NCBI GenBank assembly: GCA_020073545.1
Contig: JAIQEZ010000029.1
Location: forward strand, 1 to 42,164
Length of the DNA stretch: 42,164 nt
Direction of reading: 5' to 3'
From: Terriglobia bacterium
GTDB lineage: Bacteria; Acidobacteriota; Terriglobia; UBA7540
Positions 11,858 through 36,070 of this stretch are shown here, in pieces. Positions within the stretch are counted from its first letter, which is position 1; each line of letters opens with the position of its first letter. A program made the position numbers and the translations under genes. The notes beneath the pieces are model-generated. The model searched no databases, had not been told where the DNA came from, and saw only the letters and a list, made by a program, of their open reading frames with translations.

Positions 11858-11913
11858 ATGGCACGCGTGCCGCAAGGGGCAGGACCATTTGAGACTCGGC
11901 AGAGGCAAGGCGT

Positions 11914-13353: not shown

Positions 13354-13362
13354 GTTGCGCCG

Positions 13363-13683: not shown

Positions 13684-13687
13684 AAAC

Positions 13688-14023: not shown

Positions 14024-14127
14024 CTTGAGGAGCCGGCGTTGGGGCACGGCAGACAGGGCTTTGCGCGGCATGACAACGCCAAGGAGTGTGTGGCGGGTGC
14101 AACGGCAAGCGAAGGCGGAGTTTCACT

Positions 14128-18143: not shown

Positions 18144-21100
18144 CTACCGCCTGAGATCGATCCTGCGAAAGCCCTTAGGACCGAGAAAGTCGAACTTCCG
18201 TTGGAAGAGAGTTGCGATTTTGTCGCTCGCCGTGGCGAAAAATATCTGCCTCCGGCCCGTCAACGCAACCTCGCGCAGGTAATCAAGGAAGGACAACGAG
18301 TTCAGGTCGTCCACGTGAGCTATGGGGTCGTCCATCAGAACGACGTGCGGCGCCTCCGTGAGCTGAGCATTTTGCGCCAGAAAAATCGAGAGCGCAAAGG
18401 CCGCCCGCTGTCCACTGCTGATCTCACTAAGCTTGGCCTCGCTGCCGTCGACCTTGCGAACGAGCGTCGTCCAACTCAAGCCGAGTCCGCGAAACTCCGC
18501 TGGGGAATGAATACGTGAGAAGATCGCCTCGATGCCTGCACGATTCTGCTGTAGCGCGTCTTCCATCGCGCCTTTCAGGGAATGATCCCTTTGTAGGTTT
18601 TCGAGAGTGGATTGTGCCTTAGCAAAGCGCTCTATCCGTGGACGTAGTTCGTCAAGCTGTCGTCCGAGATGCTCTTTCCGCACGATCGACTCAGTGTAAG
18701 TCGCACGCGCTTGTTTTTCTCTACTTAGAGCTGTCTGCAGCTCGGCGGCGACCTTACGGATCGACCCGGCTTCGACCGCAAGCTCGGCAAGAGGCCCTCC
18801 ACCGGACCAGGGAAAGGACGAGGAGAAGTTGCCTAGCTTCGCTCGAAGGCTCTCCGTCGCGGCTAGCCTTTCTTTGAGTCGCGATAACGCGCCTCTAAGG
18901 TCCTGAACGTCGCGCTCTGCTGAACCCAGGGTTGCTTCAAGCGTCCGTCCCAGTTCGTCAGCGCGCTTTCTATCGCCTTCTAGAGTGCGGGACGAGGATT
19001 CCAAATCCTGATTGATGGTCCGGAGCAGTCGGTCAACAGCCGCGTGCGAGGATTCTGAGAGGGGATAGCTCAGCTCGTCCAATTGGGTCAATATTTCCGC
19101 GAGTTTCGCCTCCGAAAGCCCCTGCGAGTCTTGTGCGAGAACTTCGGCGTTCAGCACCTCGAGGCGGGCTCGATCCTCTGCTACCGCTCGCGTTGCATTT
19201 TCCACTTCGGCTAATGCAGAACGGACCGGGATGTCAGCGGGAAGACTTGCCTTTTCACAAAACTTCTTAAGCCAAGCCGATGCGGTTTCGACAGCAGTGG
19301 CGTCGCGTAGCGTGCCCTCTCGTTCCCGTAACTGGGTCAGGAGCGTCTGGCCGACCGCTTCGAGGTGCTCGTCGACACCCGCAGCAATGTGCTTTGCCAG
19401 TTCGCCCGGTCCAAACCGAGTGTGGCAAAGCGGGCACTCGTCCGGCTTGGCACTGCTCCGAAGAATTCTGCCGGCGACTTGGCGAAGTTCCTGCGCAAGA
19501 TTGAGCGATTGATCCCGTAGCTTGCTGTAGTCTGCGTATTCACGCTTTGCGGTTGCCAGCAACTCCTGAGCGGCGGTCCGCTTTGAAACAGCGGCCTCAT
19601 GACACACGGCGAGAGCCATGCTGAGATCAGCGGACGAAAGCGCACCCAAGGCACTCGCGTCGAAGCCAACCAGTCTGCCGGAATGGATGGCCAAAGTCCT
19701 CTGCAGTTTGTTCCGTTCGGCGAGGCGCTGAGGCACGCCCGCATCGATCAAGCGCTTAGCCTGCTCTACGAGATCCAGTGCTTCCCGACCGCGCTTGATC
19801 GCGTCTGCAAGAGCTTTCTGATTCTTTCGCAGGAGCTCCAGTTGAGCAATGCCCGGGGCAGCTCTTTCGCTGCTAATCCTTGCCTCATGGCAATAGCTGG
19901 CAAGCCCATCGATCGACACAGGCGACTCCGTCCAATCAAGCGCCGCCGCTTGCTCTGCTAACGAAACCAGCTCGGAAAGCGACTCCACAAGCTTACCCGC
20001 TGATACTGCCTGGTCGCCCTGGGCAACGCTCCATCCAACGCGGTGGATCATTTCCTCAAGACGAACCCGAATCGAGTCTGACTCCTGCTGTATGCCACTG
20101 GCATCCTGGAGCCGCTTATCCAGAACAGTGAGTTCCTCCTTGGTCTGTGCTTCGAGCGGGTGAAGCTCACGCAGTTTCGATGACACGGCATCGCACACCC
20201 TTTCGATGTCGCGCCAAGTCTTGGAAGCGTCAGGACCCACCAGGAGCTTGGAGAGGTTTTCCTCAATGTGCAGGGTTGGGTCGCTATTTGCCGCGAGGGC
20301 CACCGCCGCATCGGTGTCAAGGAAATTGAACCGAGCAAAGCTTAAATAGAGATTGTTGGTCTTCGCCTCTGACTGCCCATACCACGCCAAATTAAGGTCT
20401 CGAAATTGCTGCGGCTTGCGACTGGCTGTCACCGTCTCGGGCTGGCCACCGTTGAAGGCTACAGCCAGCTCGTACTGCGGCGACGCGTCTGGGTTGCGCT
20501 TGTTCCGACCGCAATAGAACAGCTCGATCGCTTCAAATAGGCACGTCTTACCCGTACCATTCGCCCCGAAGATGAGATTCACCGTGCCGAACTCGAAGTG
20601 CCGTTGAAGGGGGAAGTCCCGAAACTTCTTCAGATCCAGCAAGCGGATGAACGGCGCAGCTTTAACTTGCACTTTGCGCCTTTGCGCTTTCGGCTTGGTT
20701 GTGGGCTCGACCGATGACGACTCGATCATTGCTAGCCGAGCGGGAAGGCCTTCATCGCTCAGGACGGCCTTGTCGATTCCCGCTTCCAGGAGACGCTCCT
20801 TCCAAATGGAAAGGACGTTAGCGCGAGGAGTCGCTCCCGCAGGTGCGACTATGTGTGGTGCGAGCACCGAATCAAGCTCTTTTTCGGAGATGACAAACTT
20901 GCGCGCATACCTCCGGTCGCGTTCAATGAACTCTTTGGCGTGCAGTACGTCACTGTTCGCTAGGCGGTCCTCGCTAGTAATGAAGTAGAGATAGTTGCTC
21001 CATTGAAGGCTTTGCCTGTCTTCGAAGTAGTGCCTGCCTATCACTCGATCGAGATATTTCGTCAGTTTCTCTTCAGTTTCTGGCAGGTCTTGCGCGAGAT

Positions 21101-21230
21101 CAAGGTAATAGACGGCGAAGGGGATCTCACCTGCCTTCCTTGTGAAGCGGATCGTCGAATCGTCCACCTGCTCAGTGTCGGAGAACTGCTTGGCCACGCG
21201 CTCGCAAAGTTGAGAGATGTTGAGGGTCAT
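18144..21230 (-). CDS. Rad50/SMC-like ATPase with zinc-hook motif, probable defence-system sensor
   Basis: A 1028-residue ATPase. Residues 1-195 are a separate N-terminal domain (FAVYYLDL, ERDRRYARKFVI). The ABC/SMC head then starts, with Walker A FGANGTGKT near 220. Long Leu/Glu/Arg/Ala-rich coiled coils flank CPLCHTRFG near residue 597, a CxxC of the Rad50 zinc-hook type at the coil apex. The ABC signature EISSGQRAAFALSIF (near 940) and Walker B HVVLMDDPIAHVDD (near 963) complete the head. The usual DEP of SMC proteins is DDP here. The gene overlaps the upstream nitrilase-like gene by ATGA, so the two are translated together. It resembles the SMC component of Lamassu and related ABC-ATPase defence systems. 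I cannot assign a named system. Confidence 0.85.
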   Translation of the reverse strand: MTLNISQLCERVAKQFSDTEQVDDSTIRFTRKAGEIPFAVYYLDLAQDLPETEEKLTKYLDRVIGRHYFEDRQSLQWSNYLYFITSEDRLANSDVLHAKEFIERDRRYARKFVISEKELDSVLAPHIVAPAGATPRANVLSIWKERLLEAGIDKAVLSDEGLPARLAMIESSSVEPTTKPKAQRRKVQVKAAPFIRLLDLKKFRDFPLQRHFEFGTVNLIFGANGTGKTCLFEAIELFYCGRNKRNPDASPQYELAVAFNGGQPETVTASRKPQQFRDLNLAWYGQSEAKTNNLYLSFARFNFLDTDAAVALAANSDPTLHIEENLSKLLVGPDASKTWRDIERVCDAVSSKLRELHPLEAQTKEELTVLDKRLQDASGIQQESDSIRVRLEEMIHRVGWSVAQGDQAVSAGKLVESLSELVSLAEQAAALDWTESPVSIDGLASYCHEARISSERAAPGIAQLELLRKNQKALADAIKRGREALDLVEQAKRLIDAGVPQRLAERNKLQRTLAIHSGRLVGFDASALGALSSADLSMALAVCHEAAVSKRTAAQELLATAKREYADYSKLRDQSLNLAQELRQVAGRILRSSAKPDECPLCHTRFGPGELAKHIAAGVDEHLEAVGQTLLTQLREREGTLRDATAVETASAWLKKFCEKASLPADIPVRSALAEVENATRAVAEDRARLEVLNAEVLAQDSQGLSEAKLAEILTQLDELSYPLSESSHAAVDRLLRTINQDLESSSRTLEGDRKRADELGRTLEATLGSAERDVQDLRGALSRLKERLAATESLRAKLGNFSSSFPWSGGGPLAELAVEAGSIRKVAAELQTALSREKQARATYTESIVRKEHLGRQLDELRPRIERFAKAQSTLENLQRDHSLKGAMEDALQQNRAGIEAIFSRIHSPAEFRGLGLSWTTLVRKVDGSEAKLSEISSGQRAAFALSIFLAQNAQLTEAPHVVLMDDPIAHVDDLNSLSFLDYLREVALTGRRQIFFATASDKIATLFQRKFDFLGPKGFRRIDLRR

Positions 21231-23044
21231 GTCTCCCTACCTACGTCGACCTCGGAGGTGTCGCCTGTCTGATCAATCATAACGTAGCGGTAAGGTTCGT
21301 GAAGCACAAGCTCGCCATTTTCGCGAGACCAGACAGCCAGGCGCTGTTTTGCCAACAGGCTGGCGTGGGCACCAGCGGATTTCCTGTGAAGGTACTCGGC
21401 GGCCTTCCTTCTGACCTCGTCGATCTGTGTGGCGCTGGCTTCCTCGCCCATGTAAATCACAGTCGCGCGTCGTCCATCGGCCGATATCGCATTTTGGTGT
21501 GGGAAATCCGGGGACCAATCGAAGCGAAAGCCTTTCTTGAGATCCGCGAGCGCTTCCGGCCACGGTCCGGTCGTTTTAAGGATGTGAAACAGGTTCCCGC
21601 ACCGCTTGAGCCGCTTTACACGGAAATCGCATGCAACTTGGTGGGTATCTTGGCAAAATGTAAGTCGAAGAATGACCTCGGAGCTATCGATGACGCACGA
21701 GTCTAGTTGCTGAACCATGTGCCAGTCGCCACCTTGCACGATCTTGCCGGCACACAGCGCAAGGACGCGTTCTGCCTCGAGAGGATTATTGTTGGCGATG
21801 CGCTGGATCTCGTCTTTGGCCTCACCGCTCTCCCCGACGACAACGGAGAAGCCGTCATCCGCGGCGACTTGCTCGACCCACGCCATAACCGAGTCGTCCC
21901 AAATGTAGCTCTTAGTGAGCTGCGGCCCCCGGCGCCTAGAAATGGCGGCTGGGACGGTAATATGCGCGACCTTGGTGGCTACAAGCAGATAGGTCGCAGG
22001 TTCAAAGTTGAAGAACAGAGCGTGTACACGGAGCGGCTGAAGCCAGGTGTAATAGAGACCCCTTCGATGGTTGGCGCACAGCGTTGCGTCTCTGTCGTCG
22101 AACTCGTCGGGTCTCAAGTACCAGGCCGAGCCCGCAATGTTGTGCCAGGGCTTCGACTGCTCGCGACACCACTCTTGAGCATCTTTAGCCCAATTTAAAC
22201 AGATGAGTTCTGTCGCATCGCCTTTATATCGCAGAAGGCGATCTCTGTATTGACGGTATTGGTCCTGCCGGGGCTTCGGGGTCAGCTGAATGTGGATGAC
22301 CAATGCGCGGTCGCTAATTTCCTTGGCGTGAGCATCCTCGAATGCGAGGGCGTCCGAACAGATCAACGAGACGAGTTTTAGGTTCTTACCAATGCCACCG
22401 AATTGGTAAACGCGAGTCCCCCTTTGCAATCCGTTAATCTCAAAATGGTCGGGGTCGCCCATTGGGAACGTCTTGAACTGTACCAACACCACAGTTCTTG
22501 CGGTGCCGTTATGGTTGGCCGGCGCTGCAAGGAATACGTAAGCAAGCGGGTCGATGAATCGCCCAGGATCGGGCACGAGCGTTTCATAGAGCAACGTTGC
22601 AGATGGAGCAAGCCCCTGCTTCAACGCTTCGAGTTCGCTCAACTTGATGCTCTCACACCCGAGTGCCCAGAGTTTCCCCTCTGCGGGGACTCTACCTTCC
22701 TTGATCGCAGAGACGAGACTTTCCCAGGGCATGGAATACTCTGGCGTTATCACTAAGTCGGCTTGGGTCTCTCGTGCGTCATCCAAGAACTTTCCATACT
22801 GCTGGTGGGAAAGACATCGGTCACGATTGCGAACACCTGCGACGCTGGCCTCTATCTCCCCATGCGGTTGCATGAGGAGAGCTGTGTAGTTGCTTTCGTT
22901 CGGAACCAACACGTTGAGCACCGGCGCGCCAAGGCCTGTGGGAGCGAGCACTTCGGCAACTTGTTTGATGTCCATAGCGTCACTTCGCCACTGTTTGGCG
23001 ACGGTCGCATTGACTGATCGCAGCTTCCACTCGGTTGGAAGCAT
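21227..23044 (-). CDS. Nitrilase-fold (carbon-nitrogen hydrolase) protein paired with the SMC-like ATPase
   Basis: A 605-residue protein with an N-terminal carbon-nitrogen hydrolase-like domain. Counting from the ATG at 23044, the candidate triad is E102 in VITPEYSMPW, K191 in VLVQFKTFPM and C229 in VSLICSDALAFE, in the family's order and spacing. The last ~300 residues have no family I recognise (WDDSVMAWVEQV, GKIVQGGDWHMVQQ, RFDWSPDFP). Nitrilases cut amides or nitriles; in a defence setting the domain could be a toxic effector acting on a metabolite such as NAD or on a protein amide. Starts at 23092 (GTG) and 22975 (ATG) are also possible, as no strong ribosome binding site settles the matter. 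It is the first gene of the two-gene operon. Confidence 0.75.
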   Translation of the reverse strand: MLPTEWKLRSVNATVAKQWRSDAMDIKQVAEVLAPTGLGAPVLNVLVPNESNYTALLMQPHGEIEASVAGVRNRDRCLSHQQYGKFLDDARETQADLVITPEYSMPWESLVSAIKEGRVPAEGKLWALGCESIKLSELEALKQGLAPSATLLYETLVPDPGRFIDPLAYVFLAAPANHNGTARTVVLVQFKTFPMGDPDHFEINGLQRGTRVYQFGGIGKNLKLVSLICSDALAFEDAHAKEISDRALVIHIQLTPKPRQDQYRQYRDRLLRYKGDATELICLNWAKDAQEWCREQSKPWHNIAGSAWYLRPDEFDDRDATLCANHRRGLYYTWLQPLRVHALFFNFEPATYLLVATKVAHITVPAAISRRRGPQLTKSYIWDDSVMAWVEQVAADDGFSVVVGESGEAKDEIQRIANNNPLEAERVLALCAGKIVQGGDWHMVQQLDSCVIDSSEVILRLTFCQDTHQVACDFRVKRLKRCGNLFHILKTTGPWPEALADLKKGFRFDWSPDFPHQNAISADGRRATVIYMGEEASATQIDEVRRKAAEYLHRKSAGAHASLLAKQRLAVWSRENGELVLHEPYRYVMIDQTGDTSEVDVGRET

Positions 23045-23347
23045 CGGTCCGCGGGTGGCGCATGCCGACGAAGGGCGTCGGGACAAGTACACGCCCCGTT
23101 GGGCATGTGTGCAGTCCGATAAAGGTCAAAGCGTACACCGACGACACGGTCTTGACCAGGGCGTTACCTGCAACTTATACGCCCGCTAAATTAACAAGGC
23201 AAGGGGAAAAGACGAGCCCGAGGTCCGGGGTCGGAAGTGCAGAGACTAATGTCCCGTCCCACGCCATTGTTGGCCGTAAGCCCCGGGTCCGGACCTTTTT
23301 GGAAGAAGAAGCAGAACAAGAAACGAGCCCCGGCAGGGGCGACAGAA

Positions 23348-23692: not shown

Positions 23693-24226
23693 AGTCGCGC
23701 ACGAGGTGAAGATGACATCCCTCCCGTGGGCCGCATCGTGAGCCAATGGTGCAGGGTGGGGATGAGGCCTGATTCGTGCGGTAGCCTTCAGCAAACTCCT
23801 GTCCGTGTTTTTGGCATTCGCGGCCCGGCTTGCGGAAAGGCGGAAGAAGCCCAGCCGGCAACTAATCACTTTTCAGTTGTCCCAGAGAGTGTTATCCTGC
23901 CGTCACTTCTAGCGGTGAACCCGCCCGTTTACGCGTGAGGTGCAGAGAATGCCGCGCGGATACCAACGCATTTGCCAACGGAAACTCCTCCAACTCCTGG
24001 CCGGGCAGGTGGGGCCGATTGGCGTAGGCTTGCGGGGGGCTGAGTGGAAAGACTTGGTGGCAAGGGTTAGGAAATGCCCCCGCGGAGCGGAAACCGCGCC
24101 AGGAAACGTCGCGGCCTACAAGCTCTATCCTCGAAGCGTTACCCACAAACAGGAGGGGAGTGAATCAACCCTGCAGCTTGGTGACTCAGCTCAGATCGAC
24201 GTAACAGTTTGAGCAGGAGGCGAACC
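23693..24226. other. Gene-poor stretch before the hydrogenase region
   Basis: About 530 bp with no supported gene; the short frames lack family features. It should contain the promoter of the cyclic-nucleotide-binding protein at 24227. I looked for a sigma-54 -24/-12 element and did not find one with correct spacing. Confidence 0.5.
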
Positions 24227-24682
24227 ATGGAGATTGCGGCGTTAGAGAAGATTCTGGACGAACACCCGTTCTTTCGAAGCATGAAGGAGCACCAGCTCCG
24301 GATCATCGTCGAAAGCGCGACCGTCGTGCGCTTCGAACCCCAACAGGTGATTTTTAGCGAGGGCGAACCAGCTGAGCGTTTTTATCTCATTCGAACGGGC
24401 AAAGTGGCATTGCAGCTCGTGTCCTATCGCATCGAACCCATTACTCTCCTGACCCTCGGGGAAGGCGACATCATCGGCTGGTCGTGGCTCTTTCCACCTT
24501 ACCGCTGGAAATTGACTGCCAAATCGCTCGATGTTACACGGGCCATCTCCTTGGACGGAAGGAGCCTTCGTCAAAGGTGTGAAGAAGACCACGACCTTGG
24601 CTACGAATTCATGAAACGATTTGCCCAGATTATCGACAACCGCGTCGAGGCACTTTCAGCGCACTTCGTCGAGGCGGGGTAG
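24227..24682 (+). CDS. Cyclic-nucleotide-binding-domain protein without DNA-binding domain, copy 1
   Basis: A 151-residue single-domain cNMP-binding protein (CRP/FNR sensor fold). It has the beta-roll landmarks VIFSEGEPAERFYLIRTGKV and TLGEGDIIGWSWLFPPYRW and a C-terminal helix. There is no helix-turn-helix, so it cannot act as a classical CRP repressor or activator. The ATG at 24227 has AGGAGGCGAACC in front. A close paralogue stands at 39887-40345 at the other end of the hydrogenase cluster. Similar stand-alone domains are often found beside HydB/HydG-type hydrogenase genes; the role there (redox or ligand sensing, or assembly) is unknown. Confidence 0.9.
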   Translation: MEIAALEKILDEHPFFRSMKEHQLRIIVESATVVRFEPQQVIFSEGEPAERFYLIRTGKVALQLVSYRIEPITLLTLGEGDIIGWSWLFPPYRWKLTAKSLDVTRAISLDGRSLRQRCEEDHDLGYEFMKRFAQIIDNRVEALSAHFVEAG

Positions 24683-25294: not shown

Positions 25295-25543
25295 ATGTCA
25301 GCGGTGGAATGCCCCAGGGTCTATCAGACCGTGGGCGATACTCCTGACTCCCCCCTTAGTGCGGCCGCGACGTTCCGGTCGGCACCTAAGGTAATCCCTG
25401 AGAACCTACCCGTAGAGCAGGCCCAGGAGGAGGCGCGCTGCGGCGTACTACTAAGCTTGCCACCCCCGGGACATCCGAGAGCTATCGACTACCTTTTAAG
25501 CCATTGTCAGCCCCAAAATGGCTACTTTGGGGAGGGGGCCTGA
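25295..25543 (+). CDS. Possible small protein upstream of the FdhF-like gene
   Basis: An 82-codon frame starting ATG at 25295 (GGGGGTGCTATCACC upstream). It ends at TGA 25541-25543, one base before the GTG start of the molybdopterin-type gene, so translation could be coupled. The peptide includes ENLPVEQAQEEARCGVLLSL and AIDYLLSHCQPQNGYF and matches nothing I know. Gene status is uncertain. Confidence 0.4.
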   Translation: MSAVECPRVYQTVGDTPDSPLSAAATFRSAPKVIPENLPVEQAQEEARCGVLLSLPPPGHPRAIDYLLSHCQPQNGYFGEGA

Positions 25544-25544
25544 C

Positions 25545-27458
25545 GTGTCAACCGTCCCAACCACGTGTCCTTTTTGCGCTTGCGGCTGCGGGTTTTACTT
25601 GTTGGCCAATAAAGGGGAACTGGTTGGCGTGGCGCCGAGCGAAACCCATCCGGTATCCTTGGGAAGGCTCTGCGCCAGGGGTTGGGGCGCCCATGAGGCT
25701 GCCCTGTGGGGCGACCGGTTGAGACAACCGCTGATTAACCGTCACGGGAACCTAGAGACTGCTTCCTGGGTCGAGGCGCTTGATGACGTTACAAGGCGTT
25801 TCAGGGATTTGATCGCGGCCGGCAAGTCCGTCGGAGTACTTGGTTCTCCTCGGGCAAGCAATGAGGAGAACTATCTGGCTGGCAAGCTTGCTAGGGCTGG
25901 ATTCCAGACCAACAATGTCGACTTTTGCTTCCATTCCATCTGTCGCCCGCTATTTGCAGGTCTGGAGGATGTATGCGGCGATTACGCTCCTTCCATCAGT
26001 CTGAATGACATTGAAGCAAGCGAAACGATCTTGCTGATTGAGGGTGACCTGGCCCAGACACATCCGCGGGCTGCTTTTTCTGTGATGAAAGCGGTGGAAG
26101 CAGGAGCCCACCTTGTAACCATAGGCTACAGCAGGACGCAGATGGCACGCCTGTCATCCCTCCACCTGCAGACAACCCCTGGAAATGAGGGTGAAGTGAT
26201 CGATGGTCTTCTGGCCGCTGTCCTTCGTCCCGGTGGGGGAGATCGGACATCCCTTGCGATCCCTTGCGAAGGATATGACGCATTGCTGCGCAACGTAGAG
26301 GCTGTCAAGATCACCGAAGAGATGCGCCAGGCAGCAGACTGGATCGCGCACGCCACGCGGGCGACGTTCTTGATGGCCCCGACGAGTGGGTATGGCGATC
26401 AAACTCGAAATGCCGCCGCTGCCCTTGCCACGCTGGCCGCTGTCACGGGACATCTGGACAGGCCGGATTCCGGACTCTTGCCGCTTCTGGCGCGGAGCAA
26501 CGTGCGAGGGGCCTGCGATATGGGAGTCGCACCGGATCGCCTGCCCGGTCACCAACCACTCTGCGACCAGCGAGCTCAGCAGCGATTACAGGACCTTTGG
26601 GGCAAGAAACTGCCCTCGACTCGCGGATTGGAGGCAGAAAGTCTGCTGCAATCCGTGAGCGGATTGATTGTCTTGGCGGACGATCCCTCTGCGGTGCTCC
26701 CGATGGGAGGACGGGCATTGGCGGCTCTGGGGAAAATCGAGTTTTTGGTGGTGTTGGATGCCTTTGTAACGCCCCCCTCGCGGATCGCCCATGCGGTACT
26801 GCCGATTGCCTGCTTTGCTGAGACTGAAGGAACACTCACCAACATGGAAGGCAGAGTCCAAAGTCTTCAGGTGGCAACCCAGCCGCCTGGGGAAGCAAGA
26901 CCTGGGTGGCAGGTGCTTGCTGAGCTTTGTGCGAGATTCGACGCTGGCGTTTCATACAATTCAACTACGGATGTCCTCAGAGAGATAGCACAAGCGGCGC
27001 CACGATACGCTCGGATGGAGCAGCGGGCGTCGGACGACGAATGGGGCGGCCGATGGGTTAAGGATCCTGACAGGGGGAAGTTCAAGCTCTATGCCACGGG
27101 AGCGGCAGCGCTGACATCTGCCGAGCGCCCGCATGTGCTGGTACGTGATGGAGCTTTTGACTGGGGTCGCGACCCACTCGTTTCGTTTTCGCCAACCTTA
27201 AGTCGCGACTCTCAATCGCAGCAAAAGCTCTTTCCGAATGGCTTCGTCGAAATCTGTAAGCAAGATGCCGACGGGCTCGGCGTTCCCGTGGGACGGCAGG
27301 TAAAGTTGACCTCAGTCCATGGAAATGCGGTCGTTCCCATTCGGTTAAGAGCGGATCTCAAGCCCGGCGTGCTGCTTGTACCTTACGCGTTCCGCGACCA
27401 TGTCGCCAACGTGTTGGGCACAGACAGTGTAACGGCCGTAAAAGTAGAACAGGCATAA
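25545..27458 (+). CDS. FdhF-like molybdopterin oxidoreductase lacking the formate catalytic residues
   Basis: A 637-residue member of the molybdopterin oxidoreductase family, closest in wording to formate dehydrogenase H. The N-terminal [4Fe-4S] site is C8, C11, C15 and C43 (CPFCACGCGF, RLCARGW). Gapless comparison with FdhF around NNVDFCFHSICRPLFAGL puts Ile132 at the selenocysteine/cysteine position and Cys133 at the active-site His. In LLPLLARSNVRGACDMG, Leu315 replaces the formate-binding Arg. The pterin-binding and C-terminal segments are kept. I infer an electron-transfer or structural subunit, or a different activity, not formate oxidation. The GTG at 25545 follows GGGGAGGGGG; an ATG at 25518 is possible. 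It leads the hydrogenase operon. Confidence 0.85.
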   Translation: MSTVPTTCPFCACGCGFYLLANKGELVGVAPSETHPVSLGRLCARGWGAHEAALWGDRLRQPLINRHGNLETASWVEALDDVTRRFRDLIAAGKSVGVLGSPRASNEENYLAGKLARAGFQTNNVDFCFHSICRPLFAGLEDVCGDYAPSISLNDIEASETILLIEGDLAQTHPRAAFSVMKAVEAGAHLVTIGYSRTQMARLSSLHLQTTPGNEGEVIDGLLAAVLRPGGGDRTSLAIPCEGYDALLRNVEAVKITEEMRQAADWIAHATRATFLMAPTSGYGDQTRNAAAALATLAAVTGHLDRPDSGLLPLLARSNVRGACDMGVAPDRLPGHQPLCDQRAQQRLQDLWGKKLPSTRGLEAESLLQSVSGLIVLADDPSAVLPMGGRALAALGKIEFLVVLDAFVTPPSRIAHAVLPIACFAETEGTLTNMEGRVQSLQVATQPPGEARPGWQVLAELCARFDAGVSYNSTTDVLREIAQAAPRYARMEQRASDDEWGGRWVKDPDRGKFKLYATGAAALTSAERPHVLVRDGAFDWGRDPLVSFSPTLSRDSQSQQKLFPNGFVEICKQDADGLGVPVGRQVKLTSVHGNAVVPIRLRADLKPGVLLVPYAFRDHVANVLGTDSVTAVKVEQA

Positions 27459-27468
27459 GGGGTCGTTG

Positions 27469-28509
27469 ATGGTCTTCGCGATACAAAGACCCGGTATGGC
27501 GAAATGGCTTGAGAAGCTACTCGAGGGTGGAGAGGTCATCGCTCCAGTTCGCGGCCCTTGCGGTGATGTCGTCTTCTCAACCATCCGTTCCCCAGCGCAG
27601 GTAATATGGGACTTCGGCAATCCGCTTCACCCACCAAAACGGTTCGTGCTGCCCCAAACCGACCCACTTGTCACGATCAAGCGCAACGGTCATCGCCACG
27701 AGGTTGAGCCGATTTACGATGATGCCCGCCGCATCCTCTTCAACGTACGCAGTTGCGATGTCAAAGGAATTGCCTTCTTGACTCGAATGCACGAGATGGA
27801 ACCGGCAGATGCTTCGTACCTTCGCCGTGCCAATCGCCTCACGGTCATCAGCCTGGCCTGCACCACTCCCTGCCCACCCGGTTTCTGTGTATGTACTGAC
27901 TCGGGTCCCTTTTTGAGCGACGGTTATGACATTCAATTGACGGATGTGGGTAAGAGCTACCTGGTAGAGGTTGGTAGTGAAAAGGGTGAAGCCGCGATAT
28001 CGGTTGTGCCAAGCCTCTTCCGGAAAGCTACGGAAAGTGAACTATTAAAGCGAAAAAAACTCGAGACAGCGGCGAGAAGCCATTTTGGGCAAGAGACCTG
28101 CCATTTTGCTTCTGCCATGAGGCGCATTTCGACCGGGCGTGTGCAAGACTCGCTGTGGGACAAGATGAGCGACTGGTGCCTGGAATGCGGCGGATGCAAC
28201 CTGATTTGCCCCACCTGTTACTGCTTCAGCGTGAAGGATCTCCGTCGTGATGGAACGTGGATTCGCTGCCGGATGTGGGATTCCTGCCAGTACGCTGCCT
28301 TCACGCTTGAAGCTTCCGGACATAACCCCCGCGAGCATCGAAAGGAGCGGATGAAGCGCCGTTTCTTCCATAAAGTGAGTGCGCAGTACTACACGCGCGA
28401 CAGTACGGTCGGGTGCGTTGGCTGCGGGCGATGCATCAAGGTGTGTCTAGGCACAACGGACATGCCTGCGGTTGTAGCTGCGATCAGGAAGGGGAAATGG
28501 CATGAATGA
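27469..28509 (+). CDS. hydB: HydB/AsrA-like 4Fe-4S electron-transfer subunit
   Basis: A 346-residue iron-sulfur protein of the sulfhydrogenase beta / anaerobic sulfite reductase A family. Features are the VRSCDVKGI segment, a short cysteine cluster TTPCPPGFCVC, and two C-terminal ferredoxin-type sets: CLECGGCNLICPTCYCF and CVGCGRCIKVC. In the family it relays electrons between the FAD subunit (HydG/AsrB) and the hydrogenase. AAGGGG lies before the ATG at 27469, ten bases after the previous stop, and the next gene overlaps it by eight bases. The pairing with a Hyf-type membrane hydrogenase instead of HydDA is unusual. Confidence 0.88.
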   Translation: MVFAIQRPGMAKWLEKLLEGGEVIAPVRGPCGDVVFSTIRSPAQVIWDFGNPLHPPKRFVLPQTDPLVTIKRNGHRHEVEPIYDDARRILFNVRSCDVKGIAFLTRMHEMEPADASYLRRANRLTVISLACTTPCPPGFCVCTDSGPFLSDGYDIQLTDVGKSYLVEVGSEKGEAAISVVPSLFRKATESELLKRKKLETAARSHFGQETCHFASAMRRISTGRVQDSLWDKMSDWCLECGGCNLICPTCYCFSVKDLRRDGTWIRCRMWDSCQYAAFTLEASGHNPREHRKERMKRRFFHKVSAQYYTRDSTVGCVGCGRCIKVCLGTTDMPAVVAAIRKGKWHE

Positions 28510-29323
28510 TGTGTTCCTTCCAGATATTGCCACCCTCGTAAAGGCCTGGGACGAGACGCCCGATACCAAGACGTTTGCCTGGCGCTTCCGCGATTTGAAG
28601 GGTGGGAAGGATTTCCATTTCCTTCCTGGACAATTCCTGGAGTTGTCCGTGTTCGGGTACGGAGAGGCTCCGTTTTGCATCGCCTCAAGCCCGACTCGGC
28701 CCGACGCGTTAGAAACCACGGTCCGCCGCACCGGGCAGTTGACCGATGCGTTGCACAGGCTTGGCAATGGCGACGAGGTGGGCATACGCGGTCCCTTCGG
28801 CAACGGATTTGATGCGGAAGCGGCCCGCGGCAAGGATTTGCTTTTTGTGGGCGGCGGCATTGGACTGGCACCGCTGCGCAGCTTGATTTGGAACGCCCTT
28901 GACGAGCGTGACCGTTTCGGCAAAGTGACCATCCTTTACGGCGCCCGGACCCCCTCTGACTTGGTTTACAGGCATGAACTCAAAGAGTGGGAAGAACGCT
29001 CGGATGTGGAACTCCTCATTACCGTGGACTGGGCTGCGCCCGGTTGGACTGGAAATGTGGGGGTGGTCCCAGTTCTGTTCGAAAAGGTCACCCTTCACCC
29101 GGAGTCTACTCTGGCCTATGTCTGTGGCCCGCCGATCATGATCAGGTTCGTTGTCCGAGATCTTCTCGCGCGCGGGTTCAAAGAAGAGGCGGTCATATCC
29201 ACCTTGGAACGCATGATGCAGTGTGGTATTGGGAAATGCAATCACTGCGCCATTGGCCATCGCTACGTATGCCGCGATGGGCCGGTTTTCAACTATAGCC
29301 AGATTCGGGAGTTGGTAGAGTAG
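28502..29323 (+). CDS. hydG: HydG/AsrB-like FAD/NAD(P)-binding subunit
   Basis: A 273-residue ferredoxin-NADP reductase-type protein. FAD site: PGQFLELSVFGYGEAPFCIAS. NAD(P) site: LLFVGGGIGLAPLRSL and YGARTPSDLVYRHEL. Then AYVCGPPIM, and a C-terminal [2Fe-2S] ligand set C241, C246, C249, C257 (CGIGKCNHCAIGHRYVC). It belongs with sulfhydrogenase gamma (HydG), AsrB and dihydroorotate dehydrogenase electron-transfer subunits, and oxidises or reduces NAD(P)H. The start overlaps hydB, so the two are a unit. It gives the hydrogenase complex a nicotinamide port. Confidence 0.9.
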   Translation: MNDVFLPDIATLVKAWDETPDTKTFAWRFRDLKGGKDFHFLPGQFLELSVFGYGEAPFCIASSPTRPDALETTVRRTGQLTDALHRLGNGDEVGIRGPFGNGFDAEAARGKDLLFVGGGIGLAPLRSLIWNALDERDRFGKVTILYGARTPSDLVYRHELKEWEERSDVELLITVDWAAPGWTGNVGVVPVLFEKVTLHPESTLAYVCGPPIMIRFVVRDLLARGFKEEAVISTLERMMQCGIGKCNHCAIGHRYVCRDGPVFNYSQIRELVE

Positions 29324-29333: not shown

Positions 29334-29459
29334 ATGCACTCATCCCCCGGCCTGTTCCCTATCGCGAATACCGGGCCAAGTTATTCGGGGACAGGAGTGC
29401 GTCCGCGTACGGAGGAGATCTGGGGTCAACACTCGTTTTCAAGACAGTCGGCAGCATGA
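29334..29459 (+). CDS. Candidate 41-residue small protein between hydG and the maturation protease
   Basis: ATG at 29334, eleven bases after the hydG stop; TGA at 29457-29459 overlaps the ATG of the next gene (ATGA). The peptide (MHSSPGLFPIANTG, then RPRTEEIWGQHSF) has no known motif. GGAGGAG at 29422 is too far from the next start to serve it, so coupled translation would explain how the protease gene is initiated. It could equally be a chance frame in repeat-like sequence (GGGGACAGGAG). Confidence 0.3.
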   Translation: MHSSPGLFPIANTGPSYSGTGVRPRTEEIWGQHSFSRQSAA

Positions 29460-29980
29460 ATCTACACGCACAGCTTGCCACGAAGATTCGAGGCAACGTG
29501 GTAGTCATGGGCATTGGTAATCCCTGCCGTGGCGACGACGCAGCCGGGAGCCTCGTGGCCCGGCAGATCCACGATGCACCCAGTGTGCGCGTGATCGACG
29601 CCCAAGATGTTCCGGAAGACTACCTAACCCAAGTGGTGAATCAGGGGCCTGACACCGTCGTGCTGATTGACTCTGTTGATCTGAGCTCCGCACCTGGCTC
29701 CGTTGCGCTTTTGGACAAGGATCAATTAACTGTCTACTGGCCGAGCACACACCGCGTGCCCATCAGCCTGCTGATGAACTACCTCGAGCAAGAGACCCAT
29801 GCCCGCGTGTTGCTGATTGCCATTCAGCCGCGTCAAACGGCTTTCTTGGAACCTATGAGCGGAGAGGTGCGTGCGAGTGTTGCAGGCATGGTCGACGTGT
29901 TGAAAAGTGTTCTCGAAAGGCCGCGGGTATCTGCTGATGTCGAAATCACCGACCCATTGAGAAGAAAGGCAGTCGCTTGA
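29456..29980 (+). CDS. hycI: [NiFe]-hydrogenase maturation endopeptidase (HycI-like)
   Basis: A 174-residue member of the HycI/HybD peptidase family, which trims the C-terminus of the large subunit after nickel insertion. The signature MGIGNPCRGDDAAG holds the first nickel-sensing acid; D48 or D49 near RVIDAQDVPED and the segment LIDSVDLSSAPGSV are typical. STHRVPISLLMNYL carries the conserved His. Its target should be the large subunit at 33450, which keeps a C-terminal extension. The stop overlaps the TTG start of the next gene. Confidence 0.93.
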   Translation: MNLHAQLATKIRGNVVVMGIGNPCRGDDAAGSLVARQIHDAPSVRVIDAQDVPEDYLTQVVNQGPDTVVLIDSVDLSSAPGSVALLDKDQLTVYWPSTHRVPISLLMNYLEQETHARVLLIAIQPRQTAFLEPMSGEVRASVAGMVDVLKSVLERPRVSADVEITDPLRRKAVA

Positions 29981-31437
29981 TTACCTCAGTTGCAGTCCTC
30001 ATGCTGATCCTGCCCGCGGCCGGAGCCCTTTTGTGTGTGGCTCTGAAGAAAAGTCCTCGCCCCGTGGCCACACTCATTGCCGCCATTGCCACCGGCCTGG
30101 CTGTGTCGCTTACATTGTCCACCTACGGCGCCTCTTACACCAGAATGTTCGGGTATCTTCCATGGTTGCAGGGCATCGTCGATGCGCCTATTTTGGGGAT
30201 TTTTGTGGATCCCTTGGCTTCTTTGATGCTGCTGGTCGCGCTGCCGATCGGGTTGCTCACCGTCCTCTATTCGACCTCCTACCTTACCGACAAGAACCGA
30301 GAGCACCCGGTAAGCCGCGAGCATTACGGCCGGTACTATTTCTGGCTCCTGTTGTTCATCACCAGCATGGTGGGGGTGGCGATCTCGCCCAATTTCCTCC
30401 AGTTCTTCCTCTTTTGGGAACTGACTACTTTGTGTTCCTGGGCGCTCATATCGTTTCACCAGACCGAGCGAAGCCTGCGAGCCGGATTCAAGGCCCTCTT
30501 GATGACCGAAGTCGGCAGTGCCTTCCTGCTGCTGGCCATCCTTATTCTTTTTGTTCGTACCAGCTCCTTTGAGTTTTCAGCTCTCGGCATGCTGCCGGAA
30601 GGTTTGCGATCATGGGTTTTCCTCTTTCTCATGATTGCCGCCTGGGCGAAGGCGGCGCAGGTTCCCCTCCTAACGTGGCTGCCGGATGCCATGGAAGCTC
30701 CGACTCCTATCAGCGCTTACCTCCACGCAGCAGCGATGGTCAAAGCCGGGGTCTACCTGATGGCCAGGGCGGTGAGCAGCGGGTGGGGAATTCCCCCGAA
30801 GATTTCCTTGCTCATGGCCGGTATGGCGCTGCTCACGATTTTCGTCGCTCTCTCGTTATATTTCGTTCAGGATGACCTGAAGCGGCTGCTAGCCTATTCG
30901 ACTATCGCTCATCTCGGCTATATACTGCTCGGCATCGCTATAGGAGGTCTTGGCTCAACCCTGGGTTTCCGCGGCGCTGCGTTGCACATAATCTGCCACG
31001 CCTACAGCAAGGCGACCCTATTCTTTTGCGCGGGCGCCATCGCCTATGTGACCGGGACTCGCAGCATATCGGCACTGCGCGGCCTGGGAAGAAGCATGCC
31101 GCTCACCGCGGTGGCCTTTTTCATCGGGCTCCTGAGTGTCACCGGAGTGCCACCGCTGGCCTGCTTCTGGAGCAAGTTCATGATCCTTTCGGGCGCCATG
31201 CGTCTTCATGGTGCAATAGGGCCGACCATCCTCATTCTCATCCTTGGCGAGACCCTGGTCTCCTTCGGTTGGATGCTCTACGTCGCACAAAGAATCTTTC
31301 TGGGCCCTGTCTCGTTGGCGGCCCAAGTCCACAGCGACCCGCCTTGGGAAATGAGCGCCACCTTAGTCATCCTGATGATCGGCTGCGTAGCAGCCCCGTT
31401 TGTTGGCATGCCCTTAGTGCAGTTGATGGGAAAATAG
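29977..31437 (+). CDS. hyfD: HyfD/NuoM-like proton-channel membrane subunit
   Basis: A 486-residue protein with about 14 membrane helices, of the proton-conducting antiporter-like family (NuoL/M/N, MrpA/D). Landmarks are FFLFWELTTLCSWALI, with the helix-5 glutamate, KAAQVPLLTWLPDAMEAPTPISAYLHAA around the key lysine, QDDLKRLLAYSTIAHLGYI, and ICHAYSKATLFF. Length fits E. coli HyfD. It should couple electron flow to proton or sodium translocation. It begins with a TTG overlapping the preceding stop. Confidence 0.9.
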   Translation: MITSVAVLMLILPAAGALLCVALKKSPRPVATLIAAIATGLAVSLTLSTYGASYTRMFGYLPWLQGIVDAPILGIFVDPLASLMLLVALPIGLLTVLYSTSYLTDKNREHPVSREHYGRYYFWLLLFITSMVGVAISPNFLQFFLFWELTTLCSWALISFHQTERSLRAGFKALLMTEVGSAFLLLAILILFVRTSSFEFSALGMLPEGLRSWVFLFLMIAAWAKAAQVPLLTWLPDAMEAPTPISAYLHAAAMVKAGVYLMARAVSSGWGIPPKISLLMAGMALLTIFVALSLYFVQDDLKRLLAYSTIAHLGYILLGIAIGGLGSTLGFRGAALHIICHAYSKATLFFCAGAIAYVTGTRSISALRGLGRSMPLTAVAFFIGLLSVTGVPPLACFWSKFMILSGAMRLHGAIGPTILILILGETLVSFGWMLYVAQRIFLGPVSLAAQVHSDPPWEMSATLVILMIGCVAAPFVGMPLVQLMGK

Positions 31438-31438
31438 A

Positions 31439-33439
31439 ATGATCAATGTGGTTCGCCAAGTCGAAACCAGCATCGTGATCCTAATCGTTGGGTCATTCGT
31501 AAGCCTGCTCCTGGCGCGCCGGCGGAGGCTGTGTGGGTGGGTTAGTTTCGCGATCGTATGCGTGTCCTCCGTGAGCATCTGGCTGGCTGTAGTGGGAGCC
31601 GTCACAGGGCCGTCGCACGAACACGCGATCCTTTCCGTGCCACAACTGGGCTCCCGTCTGGCGCTGCGGGTGGACCCCTTGAGCGCGATCTTCCTGGCCA
31701 TTGTTGCACTGATTGCCCTCCTGAGCACCCTGTACTCCATCCGGTACATGGACCATTACGTGCGCGACAACGTCGCGAAGTTCTTCCCGGTCCTTCTCCT
31801 CTGCGTGGCCAGCATGATCGGCGTTCTGGTGACCACCGACTTCTTGTTCTTCCTCATCTTCTGGGAGTCCATGACGCTGACGTCATACTTCCTGGTGACG
31901 TTTGAGAGTGAGAACGCCGCGAGCCAGCGGGCGGGCCTGAAGTATTTCATCATCACCCACGGCGCAACGCTGTGCATGGTGGCTGCTGCACTGTTACTTT
32001 GGAGGACGTCAGGCTCGTTTTCTTTCGAGGCTATCAGACAAACTCTGTCCGAGTTGCTAAACACCCGACCGTTCCTAGCTCATTCCATCATCTTCCTCTT
32101 CTTCTTGGGGTTTGCCACCAAAGCGGGAATCCTACCCATGGGCGATTGGCTTCCCGATGCACACCCTGTTGCGCCCTCCGGCATGAGCGCCACGCTCTCC
32201 GGTGCACTGGTCAAGCTGGGAATATATGGGCTGGTTCGCCTCTTCTTCTCCTTTCTGGTTGCCTCACCATCGCTGAGCATCTGGGGGATTATCCTGGCTC
32301 TAGCAGGCACAGGGTCGCTTTTCGCTGGAACATTAACCGCACTGCGGCAGATCGACACCAAGCGGCTTATGGCCTTTCACACCATCGGGCAGATCGGCTA
32401 CATCTGCCTCGGGCTCGGTACGGGCGCCTACTGCCTGCCGAGGTACCCGGCGCTGGCCTCGATCGCTCTCGCGGGTGCGATATTCCATGCTGTAAACCAC
32501 GCCTGCTTCAAGTCGTGCCTCTTCCTCGGCGCGGGGTCGGTGCTTTACCGGACGGGCAAGCGCGACATGGATAAGCTGGGCGGCCTCGCTGGTCCTATGC
32601 CGTACACAGCCGGCACAACAACAATCGCCTCATTGAGTATCGCGGGGGTGCCGCCCTTCAACGGGTTCGCCAGCAAATGGCTTATCGTTGCCGGCTGCAT
32701 ATTGGCAGGAATGCGATTCCCGTTGTTCCTGGTGCTGGGTCTTGTAGCCCTATTCATTTCGCTCGTTACGCTCGCTTCCTTCCTGAAGGTACTCGGAGCG
32801 GTCTTTCTCGGCAAGGCCGATGAGAACTTCAGACCCGAGGAAGTGCCGATATCCATGATTGTGCCCCAAGTGGTGCTTGCCGCCCTCTGCATCCTACTGG
32901 GCATCTTTCCACAGCCCGTCTTGCGTTTCGTCGGTTCTGCCATCCAGGGGGTTACGGGCATCCCCGTATCGGGGGTGGACGCGAGCAGGATTTGGGGCGG
33001 CCTGTCACTGACGGATGGATCGCCGGTCGCATTCTGGTCACCCCTCGCCATTTTGGCAGCCTTGGCCATCCTGGCATTGATCTCCTATGCCCTTCAGCGC
33101 GTGGGCGGAGCCCGAGTGAGGTCAGTACCGGTCTGGTACTGCGGTGAAGAACACGCCCCGGCCACGGTCCGTTACCCCGCCAGCAGTTTTTACCTGCCAT
33201 TCAAACACGCCTTCCAGGGAGTCTATCCAACTGGAAAGGTGCACGTGCCGAAATTCCCAGCTCTACTTCGCCGCGTGCTCGATTTTGACCAATGGCTGTA
33301 TGCGCCGACCGTCAAGATTATTGACAGGGCCGCAGACCGAGTCAGCAGAACGCACGTCGGAACCCCTCAAATCTACCTTCTGTGGATAGTGATTGGCGCC
33401 ATCGTTGTGACTGGAATCTTGCTGTGGGTGAATGGCTGA
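31439..33439 (+). CDS. hyfB: HyfB/NuoL-like proton-channel membrane subunit
   Basis: A 666-residue antiporter-like subunit, the length of HyfB (about 670). The antiporter core (about 50-450) carries FLIFWESMTLTSYFLVTFE, GFATKAGILPMGDWLPDAHP, QIDTKRLMAFHTIGQIGYI and AVNHACFKSCLF. The C-terminal part has further helices and a soluble VPVWYCGEEH-type segment typical of HyfB/HycC. It starts one base after the hyfD stop. With hyfD and hyfF it makes three pumping modules in one complex. Confidence 0.9.
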   Translation: MINVVRQVETSIVILIVGSFVSLLLARRRRLCGWVSFAIVCVSSVSIWLAVVGAVTGPSHEHAILSVPQLGSRLALRVDPLSAIFLAIVALIALLSTLYSIRYMDHYVRDNVAKFFPVLLLCVASMIGVLVTTDFLFFLIFWESMTLTSYFLVTFESENAASQRAGLKYFIITHGATLCMVAAALLLWRTSGSFSFEAIRQTLSELLNTRPFLAHSIIFLFFLGFATKAGILPMGDWLPDAHPVAPSGMSATLSGALVKLGIYGLVRLFFSFLVASPSLSIWGIILALAGTGSLFAGTLTALRQIDTKRLMAFHTIGQIGYICLGLGTGAYCLPRYPALASIALAGAIFHAVNHACFKSCLFLGAGSVLYRTGKRDMDKLGGLAGPMPYTAGTTTIASLSIAGVPPFNGFASKWLIVAGCILAGMRFPLFLVLGLVALFISLVTLASFLKVLGAVFLGKADENFRPEEVPISMIVPQVVLAALCILLGIFPQPVLRFVGSAIQGVTGIPVSGVDASRIWGGLSLTDGSPVAFWSPLAILAALAILALISYALQRVGGARVRSVPVWYCGEEHAPATVRYPASSFYLPFKHAFQGVYPTGKVHVPKFPALLRRVLDFDQWLYAPTVKIIDRAADRVSRTHVGTPQIYLLWIVIGAIVVTGILLWVNG

Positions 33440-33449
33440 GGAGATGGCC

Positions 33450-35156
33450 ATGGATGTCATAGATCAGAGGACCATCACGACGGTTAAGGAAGCAGTCGCC
33501 GCGCGCAGCGACGGTGCTCTCCTGTCAGTGACGCAACCTCACCCCGATACCCTCTATTTCGCGATCGATAAGAGGGCGATGCCAGCCGTGGTGGATGGCC
33601 TAGTCAACGAGATGCGAGCGCGCTTCATGATTTCGGTGGGAACTGATAAAAGACCGGTCACCGGCGAATTCGCGATCCTGCATCTGTTTTCGCTCGACCG
33701 TGAGCATCTCTACATTCTGCTCGAATCTCCCGTCGCCGAAGAAGACCTGCGGATTGCATCGATCACGGGCGTCGTCCCGGGGGCAAATTGGGCAGAGCGT
33801 GAGTACCGCGATGCCATTGGAGTGCATCCCGAAGGGCATCCGGATCCACGCCGCCTGCTCTTGGCAGACGACTGGCCGGAAGGCGTCTATCCACTGCGCC
33901 GAGATTTCCCTTACAACTACCAGCCTCCGCCTGCTGAAAATGTGCGCCCGCAACTGCGTGAACCCCCCGCCGGCGCAAGCGTGTTACCCATGGGGCCATT
34001 CTTCCCTGTTTTGGAGGAACCTGCTTATTGGCGCTTGTTCGTCGAAGGCGAGACGATCGTGGGATGCGATACTCGCATCTTCTACAACCACCGGGGAATT
34101 GAAAAGCTGGGTGAAAGCGTTTTGACCTACAACGAGATCCCGTACTTGGCCGAGAGGATATGCGGGATCTGCGGATTCATTCATTCGACCTGTTATTGCC
34201 AGGCCGTCGAGAAGGCGGCCGGCATCGAGGCGCCGCGTAGGGCCCGATACATCCGAACGATCATGCTGGAGCTGGAACGCATCCATTCGCATCTGCTCTG
34301 GCTGGGCATTGCGGGGCACATCATCGGTTTCGACACGGTCCTCATGCAGACTTGGCGGATTCGTGAGCCGGTGATGTGGCTTTGTGAAGAGATCTCTGGA
34401 AACCGCAAGACATACGGAATGAATACGGTCGGCGGGCTCCGGCGCGATCTCCCCAATCAAATCAAGCCCAAGCTCATGGAGACGCTCGCGGAGGTGGAAA
34501 AGGAGGCCATAGCAGTTCGCGATGCGGTCGTGGGGGACACCACGTTGCATGCAAGGACCAAGGGAGTTGGCGTATTAACGAACGAATGGGCGAAGAAGAT
34601 CTGTACCGTGGGCCCGCCGGCGAGGGCATCCGGGGTGGCTATCGATGCGCGGATCGATCACCCCTATGCGGCGTACGACGAAGTGCCCCCGCAGATTGCC
34701 ACGCAAGAGGCGGGTGATACATGGGCGCGCGTGCTCGTGCGAGTCGGCGAGTTGCTGGAGTCAATTCGGCTTGTACGCGAGGCGCTGTCGGCAATTCCTG
34801 AGGGTCCGATTTGCGCGGAGATCAAGGAGGAAATACCGCCAGGGAAAGTGGGTGTCTCCGTGGTAGAGGCACCGAGGGGCGAGGCAGTCCATTTTGTGCT
34901 GACGGGTGGTGATAACCGGCCGTACCGGTGGAGAGTGCGTGCCCCAACCTATCCGAACCTTCAGGCTCTGCCGGCTATGATCTTAAATGAAACCATAGCG
35001 GACGTGCCCATTACCCTCGGGAGTCTCGACCCCTGCTTCTCATGTACGGAGCGCCTCGAGACGATCGATAGAAGGACAAAGGAAGTTAGGATTTACTCCC
35101 GCGCTGACCTCCTTGAAATGTCCAGAGGGAAGGCCCGCCGCAGAGGTGCACCATGA
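33450..35156 (+). CDS. hyfG: Group 4 [NiFe]-hydrogenase large subunit, NuoC-NuoD fusion (HyfG-like)
   Basis: A 568-residue catalytic subunit. Residues 1-170 are a NuoC-like domain (FAILHLFSLDREHLYILLES, WAEREYRDAIGVHPEGHPDP); the rest is the NuoD-like large subunit. Nickel ligands are C238 and C241 in ERICGICGFIHSTC and C529 and C532 in DPCFSCTER. About 36 residues follow CTER, the extension a HycI-type protease should remove after that Arg. GAGGAG lies six bases before the ATG at 33450; an in-frame ATG at 33432 is possible. It makes or oxidises H2 at the membrane. It overlaps hyfC by four bases. Confidence 0.94.
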   Translation: MDVIDQRTITTVKEAVAARSDGALLSVTQPHPDTLYFAIDKRAMPAVVDGLVNEMRARFMISVGTDKRPVTGEFAILHLFSLDREHLYILLESPVAEEDLRIASITGVVPGANWAEREYRDAIGVHPEGHPDPRRLLLADDWPEGVYPLRRDFPYNYQPPPAENVRPQLREPPAGASVLPMGPFFPVLEEPAYWRLFVEGETIVGCDTRIFYNHRGIEKLGESVLTYNEIPYLAERICGICGFIHSTCYCQAVEKAAGIEAPRRARYIRTIMLELERIHSHLLWLGIAGHIIGFDTVLMQTWRIREPVMWLCEEISGNRKTYGMNTVGGLRRDLPNQIKPKLMETLAEVEKEAIAVRDAVVGDTTLHARTKGVGVLTNEWAKKICTVGPPARASGVAIDARIDHPYAAYDEVPPQIATQEAGDTWARVLVRVGELLESIRLVREALSAIPEGPICAEIKEEIPPGKVGVSVVEAPRGEAVHFVLTGGDNRPYRWRVRAPTYPNLQALPAMILNETIADVPITLGSLDPCFSCTERLETIDRRTKEVRIYSRADLLEMSRGKARRRGAP

Positions 35157-36070
35157 CGGCTTCGTTTGTTACGGTATTCCTGCCGTGCTTGCTGAACGTG
35201 GTGCTGGCTCTGTTCTTATCGCCGCTTTGCGAAGGCATCATGCGCAAGCTCCGAGCCGCGATCCACTCTCGCCTTGGGCCCCCGATCACGCAACCCTATT
35301 GGGATCTCTTGAAGCTCTTGGGCAAGGAAGACCTCCGGAGCACGGGCGGAGTCGTATATGCGAGCCTGCCGGCTCTCACGCTAGGTTCGCTGCTGCTTCT
35401 CGCGACGCTGGTTCCGATGGGAACTGCCGCACCGCTCGCCTTTGCCGGGGATATGATCGTGGTGCTCTATGTCGCGACCATGAGCGGTGTACTGATCATG
35501 TTGGCGGGGTTTGCTAGCGCCAGCCCTTATGCTTCCATCGGGAGCTCGCGCGAAATGATGATGCTTTTGTCTGTCGAACCCATTCTGGCCATTGCTCTTT
35601 CCGTGGGTGCGTTCAAGGCAAAGACCCTGGCGTTGGGCGGCATTGTCAACTGGCAGGTGCAGAATGGGCCCAGCATCAGTATGGCGATAGGGGGCGTGGC
35701 ATTTTTCCTCGCCCTGCAGGCACTGGCGGGAAAATTGCCATTCGACATTGCCGAGGCTGATCAGGAAATCATGGGGGGCTCGCTGGTGGAGCAAAGCGGT
35801 CCGAGACTTGCGCTTTTCCGCTGGGCCATTTGGACGAAGCAGCTCGTCTTCGCTTTCTTGCTGGTTGAGGTGTTCTTTCCTTGGCCGCGCGTTGGAATTC
35901 CTCTGCTTGATCTGACCATAACGATGCTGAAAGTGCTCGTGGTGCTGATGCTTGTGGCGGTTATTGATGTCGTCAATCCGAGACTCCGTATCGATCAGGC
36001 CATGGGTTATTTCATGCGGGTCGCGGTTTCGTCCCTGGCGGCCCTGGCATTTGCGGTGATTGGGAAGTAG
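35153..36070 (+). CDS. hyfC: HyfC/NuoH-like membrane anchor subunit
   Basis: A 305-residue, eight-helix protein of the NuoH/HycD family. RLGPPITQPYWDLLKLLGKE is the cytosolic loop that meets the small subunit; ASIGSSREMMMLLSVEPILA and LPFDIAEADQEIMGGSLVEQSG carry the acidic residues of the quinone/E-channel region. It anchors the soluble arm to the pump modules. It overlaps hyfG by ATGA. Confidence 0.93.
   Translation: MTASFVTVFLPCLLNVVLALFLSPLCEGIMRKLRAAIHSRLGPPITQPYWDLLKLLGKEDLRSTGGVVYASLPALTLGSLLLLATLVPMGTAAPLAFAGDMIVVLYVATMSGVLIMLAGFASASPYASIGSSREMMMLLSVEPILAIALSVGAFKAKTLALGGIVNWQVQNGPSISMAIGGVAFFLALQALAGKLPFDIAEADQEIMGGSLVEQSGPRLALFRWAIWTKQLVFAFLLVEVFFPWPRVGIPLLDLTITMLKVLVVLMLVAVIDVVNPRLRIDQAMGYFMRVAVSSLAALAFAVIGK

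Follow-up and report, generated by a model that had tools for sequence, protein, structure and literature searches.

The component parts of the locus described here are already known, and so is a related type of locus from Saganbacteria. The Saganbacteria RX5A locus was reported to have asrA and asrB together with a group-4 hydrogenase and a molybdopterin protein that could not be classified, and it was called enigmatic (PMC6349859). For group 4g hydrogenases, HydDB gives the function as unknown (PMC5037454). Moreover, a literature search brought up no formate dehydrogenase (FDH)-like subunits of group-4a hydrogenases from Acidobacteria. The DNA analyzed here (the window) is a stretch of 42,164 nucleotides from a Terriglobia bacterium (contig JAIQEZ010000029.1), taken from a draft assembly of 261 contigs, and it carries an operon on the + strand in which an FdhF-like gene stands at the head of a group-4 hydrogenase gene set.

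The first gene of the operon (25545-27458, +) encodes an FdhF-like subunit without the FDH active site and with one predicted [4Fe-4S] cluster. It is followed on the same strand by a HydB/AsrA-like Fe-S subunit of the sulfhydrogenase beta type (27469-28509; PF17179; NF040829, below its cut-off), which matches the sulfhydrogenase 1 beta subunit of P. furiosus (9nez_B, E 1.4e-40) with its cluster cysteines conserved, and by a HydG/AsrB-like FAD/NAD(P)H and [2Fe-2S] subunit of the sulfhydrogenase gamma type (28502-29323; PF00175, PF10418; 9nez_C, E 5.9e-60), in which C241, C246, C249 and C257 are invariant in 12 loci. The genes that come next, all on the + strand, encode a HycI-like hydrogenase maturation protease (29456-29980; PF01750; TIGR00072 above cut-off), a HyfD-like antiporter-type membrane subunit (29977-31437; NF005097, hydrogenase 4 subunit D, 510 bits against a cut-off of 430), and a HyfB-like antiporter-type membrane subunit (31439-33439; NF005086, 456 bits, below the cut-off of 667). 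The HycE-like [NiFe] large subunit (33432-35156), with NuoC and NuoD domains fused, has subunit 5 of the E. coli formate hydrogenlyase as its closest solved relative (7z0s_E, E 3.9e-126), and carries both Ni-binding motifs, RICGICGFIH and DPCFSC. The set is completed by a HycD/NuoH-like membrane subunit (35153-36070; PF00146), a HycF/HyfH/NuoI-like 2x[4Fe-4S] subunit (36083-36535; NF006076, hydrogenase 4 subunit H, below cut-off), a HyfE-like membrane subunit (36687-37361), named by its operon position and co-conserved at the same place in other loci, a HyfF-like antiporter-type membrane subunit (37396-38907), similar to HyfB and HyfD and likewise co-conserved in position, and a HycG/NuoB-like small Fe-S subunit (39090-39590; PF01058; NF005012 above cut-off), the start of which is inferred. 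With the CxxC...H and DPCxxC Ni motifs, HycD, HycF, HycG and the antiporter-type partners all present, the hydrogenase belongs to group 4 of the [NiFe] enzymes. The operon does not encode a formate hydrogenlyase, which combines a catalytic FDH with HycB: the active-site residues are absent, and there is no HycB gene in the operon.

Upstream of the operon lies a gene for a Crp-like protein with a cyclic-nucleotide-binding domain (24209-24682, +; PF00027). A homologue of it (51%) is also found upstream of the FdhF-like gene in locus L001, and the protein is a possible regulator of the operon. The window's genome contains HypA, and no other FDH alpha subunit was found in it except one NuoG-type frame. 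Two further features were observed elsewhere in the window. Positions 5357-15249 hold a bacterial microcompartment locus with a PduS-like RnfC/51K protein, several BMC shell proteins, three EutN/CcmL vertex proteins, a PTAC phosphotransacylase, an aldehyde dehydrogenase and a class II aldolase, suggesting a compartment of the fucose/rhamnose type. In addition, an SMC-like ATPase of 1028 aa, for which PADLOC gave LmuB-like matches, overlaps by 4 bases a 621-aa protein without a family match (18144-23092, -), a possible unclassified defence pair.

The open frame of the FdhF-like gene spans 25518-27458 (+). Translation from the GTG at 25545 yields a protein of 637 aa, and translation from the ATG at 25518 one of 646 aa, nine residues longer. 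The GTG is the better start, because GGGGAGGGGG is located 7 bases 5' of it, with nothing alike 5' of the ATG, and because alignments of homologues begin at about residue 9-10 of the 646-aa form; the start chosen in the first-pass annotation was thus borne out. No internal TGA readable as selenocysteine (Sec) occurs within the gene, and such a codon is present in several active homologues.

We then compared the FdhF-like protein with known families. Pfam recognized all three FDH domains (PF04879, PF00384 and PF01568), and the AlphaFold2 model (pLDDT 86.5) adopts the FDH fold, its best PDB matches in Foldseek being formate dehydrogenases, with a TM-score of 0.82 to FdhF (1aa6). The Fe4S4, molybdopterin and dinucleotide-binding domains, in the order found in FDHs, together with the fold, place the protein in the DMSO-reductase superfamily (MopB fold). 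Membership in the FDH alpha family itself is another matter, as the score against TIGR01591 was 335 bits, below the curated cut-off of 666, and the protein keeps the N-terminal [4Fe-4S] cysteines but not Sec/Cys140, His141 and Arg333. NuoG was considered as an alternative identity and rejected: TIGR01973 scored 127 bits against a cut-off of 470, and the FdhF-type cluster motif stands at the start of the protein, with no N-terminal [2Fe-2S]/[4Fe-4S] domains before it.

When the protein was aligned with the E. coli FdhF sequence of NC_000913, the proposed gapless match of NNVDCCARVUHGPSVAGL to NNVDFCFHSICRPLFAGL was confirmed, and with it the substitution of all three formate-handling residues: Ile132, Cys133 and Leu315 (Ile141, Cys142 and Leu324 in the 646-aa numbering) stand at the positions of Sec140, His141 and Arg333. 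The [4Fe-4S] cysteines C17, C20, C24 and C52 (646-aa numbering) are retained. A contig scan together with searches of genome sets yielded a clade of 13 distinct proteins of almost full length, the window's included, from Acidobacteriota (Terriglobia, Bryobacteraceae and Thermoanaerobaculaceae) and Gemmatimonadota; the other members are 38-73% identical to the window protein. None of the 13 has the Cys/Sec140-His141 pair, and none has Arg333. Position 140 is occupied by Thr in four members, Ile and Gly in two each, and Gln, Ser, Ala, Cys and Glu in one each; position 141 by Tyr (7), Cys (3), Trp, Leu and Phe (1 each); and position 333 by Pro (10) or Leu (3). Locus L070 encodes the only member with Cys at 140, and His141 and Arg333 are absent there.

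These counts bear on two of the explanations that had been considered for the window protein. The Cys located one residue from the Sec position might have served as a shifted metal ligand, either itself or through another displaced residue, but only 3 of the 13 members have Cys at this position, the others having Tyr, Trp, Leu or Phe, so that the idea is refuted for Cys133 and has next to nothing left in its favour in any form. Nor does an artefact account for the residues. A local sequencing error, a frameshift or a pseudogene might be suspected in a draft assembly; however, the frame is open, 12 other genomes lack the same residues, and dN/dS values of about 0.25-0.32 (0.28 against L001, 0.25 for L003-L004 and 0.32 for L018-L082) show purifying selection on the gene. 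We accordingly rejected this explanation, which has a negligible chance of being correct. The absence of the formate-site residues holds throughout the clade, and the residues at the positions of Ile132, Cys133 and Leu315 vary.

The loss extends to the cofactor site. Of 82 positions that are near-invariant across 26 active FDHs, the clade retains 30 and loses 39. Particularly telling are those common to FdhF and NapA, as these two enzymes act on different substrates with the same cofactor: K44, G174, N176 and Q335 (FdhF numbering) are replaced by Arg, Glu, Asp and Arg, respectively, in all 13 members, and most or all members have lost each of G298, R460, D478, R581, N662 and the C-terminal K679. 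Of these changes, K44R and N176D recur in NuoG and in a second inactive clade described below. In E. coli FdhF, the K44R variant kept its [4Fe-4S] cluster (4.5% lost) and 7% of its activity, and simulation showed a loosened Mo cofactor (PMC12176258). The earlier statement that the Fe-S and pterin segments remain therefore held in full for the four cysteines, but for the pterin segments only as far as domains and fold go, most of the cofactor-site residues shared by FdhF and NapA being lost. Since these common positions are lost, binding of a Mo/W-bis-MGD cofactor is unlikely, and we strongly infer from the sequences that the FdhF-like subunit has neither formate activity nor this cofactor. For the same reason, it is unlikely that the protein acts on another substrate, as had also been suggested. 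The predicted FDH fold and the three recognizable FDH domains would be in line with a protein that still binds Mo/W-bis-MGD and feeds or drains the hydrogenase by a different reaction; yet, with the common positions lost, a shorter C-terminal segment, no conserved candidate metal ligand at position 140 (I/Q/T/S/G/A/C/E) and an active-site helix without an invariant residue, we regard this as improbable.

Constraint has left catalysis and the active-site helix and now rests on the Fe-S domain. All clade members carry the four [4Fe-4S] cysteines, and the Fe-S domain is the best-conserved part of these proteins, with a mean majority fraction of 0.73, versus 0.55 in the broader active set. The active-site helix behaves in the opposite way (0.48 in the clade versus 0.73 in active FDHs), and none of its residues is invariant among the 13 members.

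The genomic setting is constant as well. HydB and HydG genes are located directly 3' of the FdhF-like gene in all 13 clade loci with flanking sequence, and HycE is present in all 11 with a long enough flank. Wherever the flank reaches, the order is the same, with the FdhF-like gene first, followed by HydB, HydG, HycI and the hydrogenase-4-like set. Moreover, a second clade from Acidobacteriota (13 loci, L048-L051 and L094-L102) combines an FdhF-like protein without Cys/Sec with HydB, HydG and a group-4 hydrogenase. In a quick tree, a branch sets each of three groups apart from all other sequences, namely the active FDHs (support 99), the window clade (100) and the second inactive clade (97), and one change is enough to separate active from inactive forms; the branch of NuoG is very long and its placement unsure. 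In two more distant loci, L106 and L108, HydB, HydG and a group-4 hydrogenase are accompanied by a further protein of the molybdopterin fold. These latter proteins (L106:2249-4024 and L108:7171-9018) keep the cluster cysteines and have no Cys/Sec at position 140, and that of L108 has no Molybdop_Fe4S4 match in Pfam. A separate observation concerns L011 (9308-15645, from Dethiosulfatarculus), where a NuoG-like protein of 902 aa without the FDH site (Tyr-Trp) adjoins a NuoE-like protein and a fused NuoF/GltD-type flavoprotein, resembling an Stn-type transhydrogenase.

Based on these results, the FdhF-like protein is most likely an iron-sulfur linker or scaffold, and not an enzyme. The first-pass annotation had raised the possibility of an electron wire, as NuoG is, and an electron-transferring subunit is the reading best supported by the active site absent throughout the clade, the invariant ligands, the operon with its hydrogenase and flavin NAD(P)H subunits, and K44R/N176D, although sequence cannot separate a wire on the electron path from a remnant off it. 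We consider it probable that the complex is an NAD(P)H-linked group-4 hydrogenase in which the former FDH subunit works as an on-path Fe-S wire or linker. Electrons would pass from NAD(P)H to the FAD and [2Fe-2S] of HydG, to the [4Fe-4S] clusters of HydB, to the single [4Fe-4S] of the FdhF-like subunit, and then through the HycF-like and NuoB-like subunits to the NiFe site, their transfer being coupled to ion movement via the HyfB/D/F antiporter-type subunits. In this arrangement, the FdhF-like subunit would bridge HydB and the hydrogenase arm, approximately in the place of HycB in formate hydrogenlyase and of NuoG in complex I. At standard potentials the reduction of protons to H2 by NAD(P)H is uphill; therefore, the complex may spend the ion gradient in making H2, or run from H2 to NAD(P)+.

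The same complex could also operate with electrons passing directly from HydB to the HycF-like subunit, the FdhF-like subunit and its cluster, again without catalysis, serving assembly or stability only. In NuoG the same cluster (N7) lies off the path, which counts against a wire. So does the FdhF-type cluster of StnC: its FdhF domain is catalytically inactive, and clusters C1 and C2 lie outside the pathway, with their cysteines required for assembly (PMC10482914). Moreover, among the redox subunits of the clade loci, the FdhF-like protein usually shows the lowest conservation, its dN/dS being 1.4-3 times that of its redox partners (against L001, 0.20 for the neighbouring HydB and 0.10 for HycE), and a looser structural role would also fit this difference. 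Nevertheless, constraint on the protein is strongest at the cluster ligands and in the Fe-S domain; in contrast to StnC and NuoG, it forms a chain of its own, in which the remnant is the only predicted cluster; and it sits where HydB must join the hydrogenase arm, with no HycB homologue at hand. On balance, a purely structural role seems rather unlikely, and the on-path linker is preferred. The wider proposal, namely a widespread, ion-translocating NAD(P)H:H+ hydrogenase akin to complex I, where the FDH of a formate hydrogenlyase has turned into a cofactor-free Fe-S bridge beside HydBG, in parallel to the origin of NuoG, is put forward tentatively, as something a little short of an even prospect.

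If correct, these operons encode energy coupling between H2 and NAD(P)H instead of formate metabolism. Automatic annotation will probably take the proteins for formate dehydrogenases and their operons for formate hydrogenlyases, and would in this way assign formate metabolism to Acidobacteriota and Gemmatimonadota. The clade also offers a parallel, open to testing, with the presumed origin of NuoG from a molybdenum enzyme that lost its cofactor but was retained for electron transfer or assembly. Judging from the literature located, two points are new: the clade-wide loss of active-site and cofactor positions with the cluster ligands retained, and the regular link of such proteins to HydBG-type group-4 hydrogenases in two phyla.

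Among known systems, E. coli formate hydrogenlyase-1/hydrogenase-4 (Hyc/Hyf; 7z0s/7z0t) shares with the window the HycE-like subunit with Ni motifs, HycD, HycF, HycG, the HyfB/D/E/F-like membrane subunits, HycI and an FdhF-fold partner; the window differs in its FdhF-like protein without Sec/Cys, His and Arg, in having no HycB homologue, in its HydB/HydG NAD(P)H module and in the location of the FdhF-like gene inside the operon. The Saganbacteria RX5A locus, unlike the window, has cooF, and its make-up is closer to that of L106; the portion of that account available makes no mention of lost active-site or cofactor positions (PMC6349859). P. furiosus sulfhydrogenase 1 (9nez) provides, in its HydB and HydG, the closest solved relatives of the window's module, but is a soluble group-3b enzyme without FdhF-like or membrane subunits. 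The NAD(P)-type FDHs of L007, L012 and L112 also have an FdhF-type subunit beside HydB and HydG; in contrast to the window protein, they keep the Cys-His-Arg-Lys-Asn site, and no hydrogenase genes occur in the available flank, the contigs of L007 and L012 ending soon after HydG. NuoG and StnC have extra N-terminal domains, and their flavin partners are of the NuoEF or GltD/HydBC type, not HydBG. Nevertheless, both resemble the window protein in an FdhF-type domain without a catalytic Mo site, with the [4Fe-4S] ligands kept and a role in electron transfer or assembly, and NuoG shares K44R and N176D with the clade.
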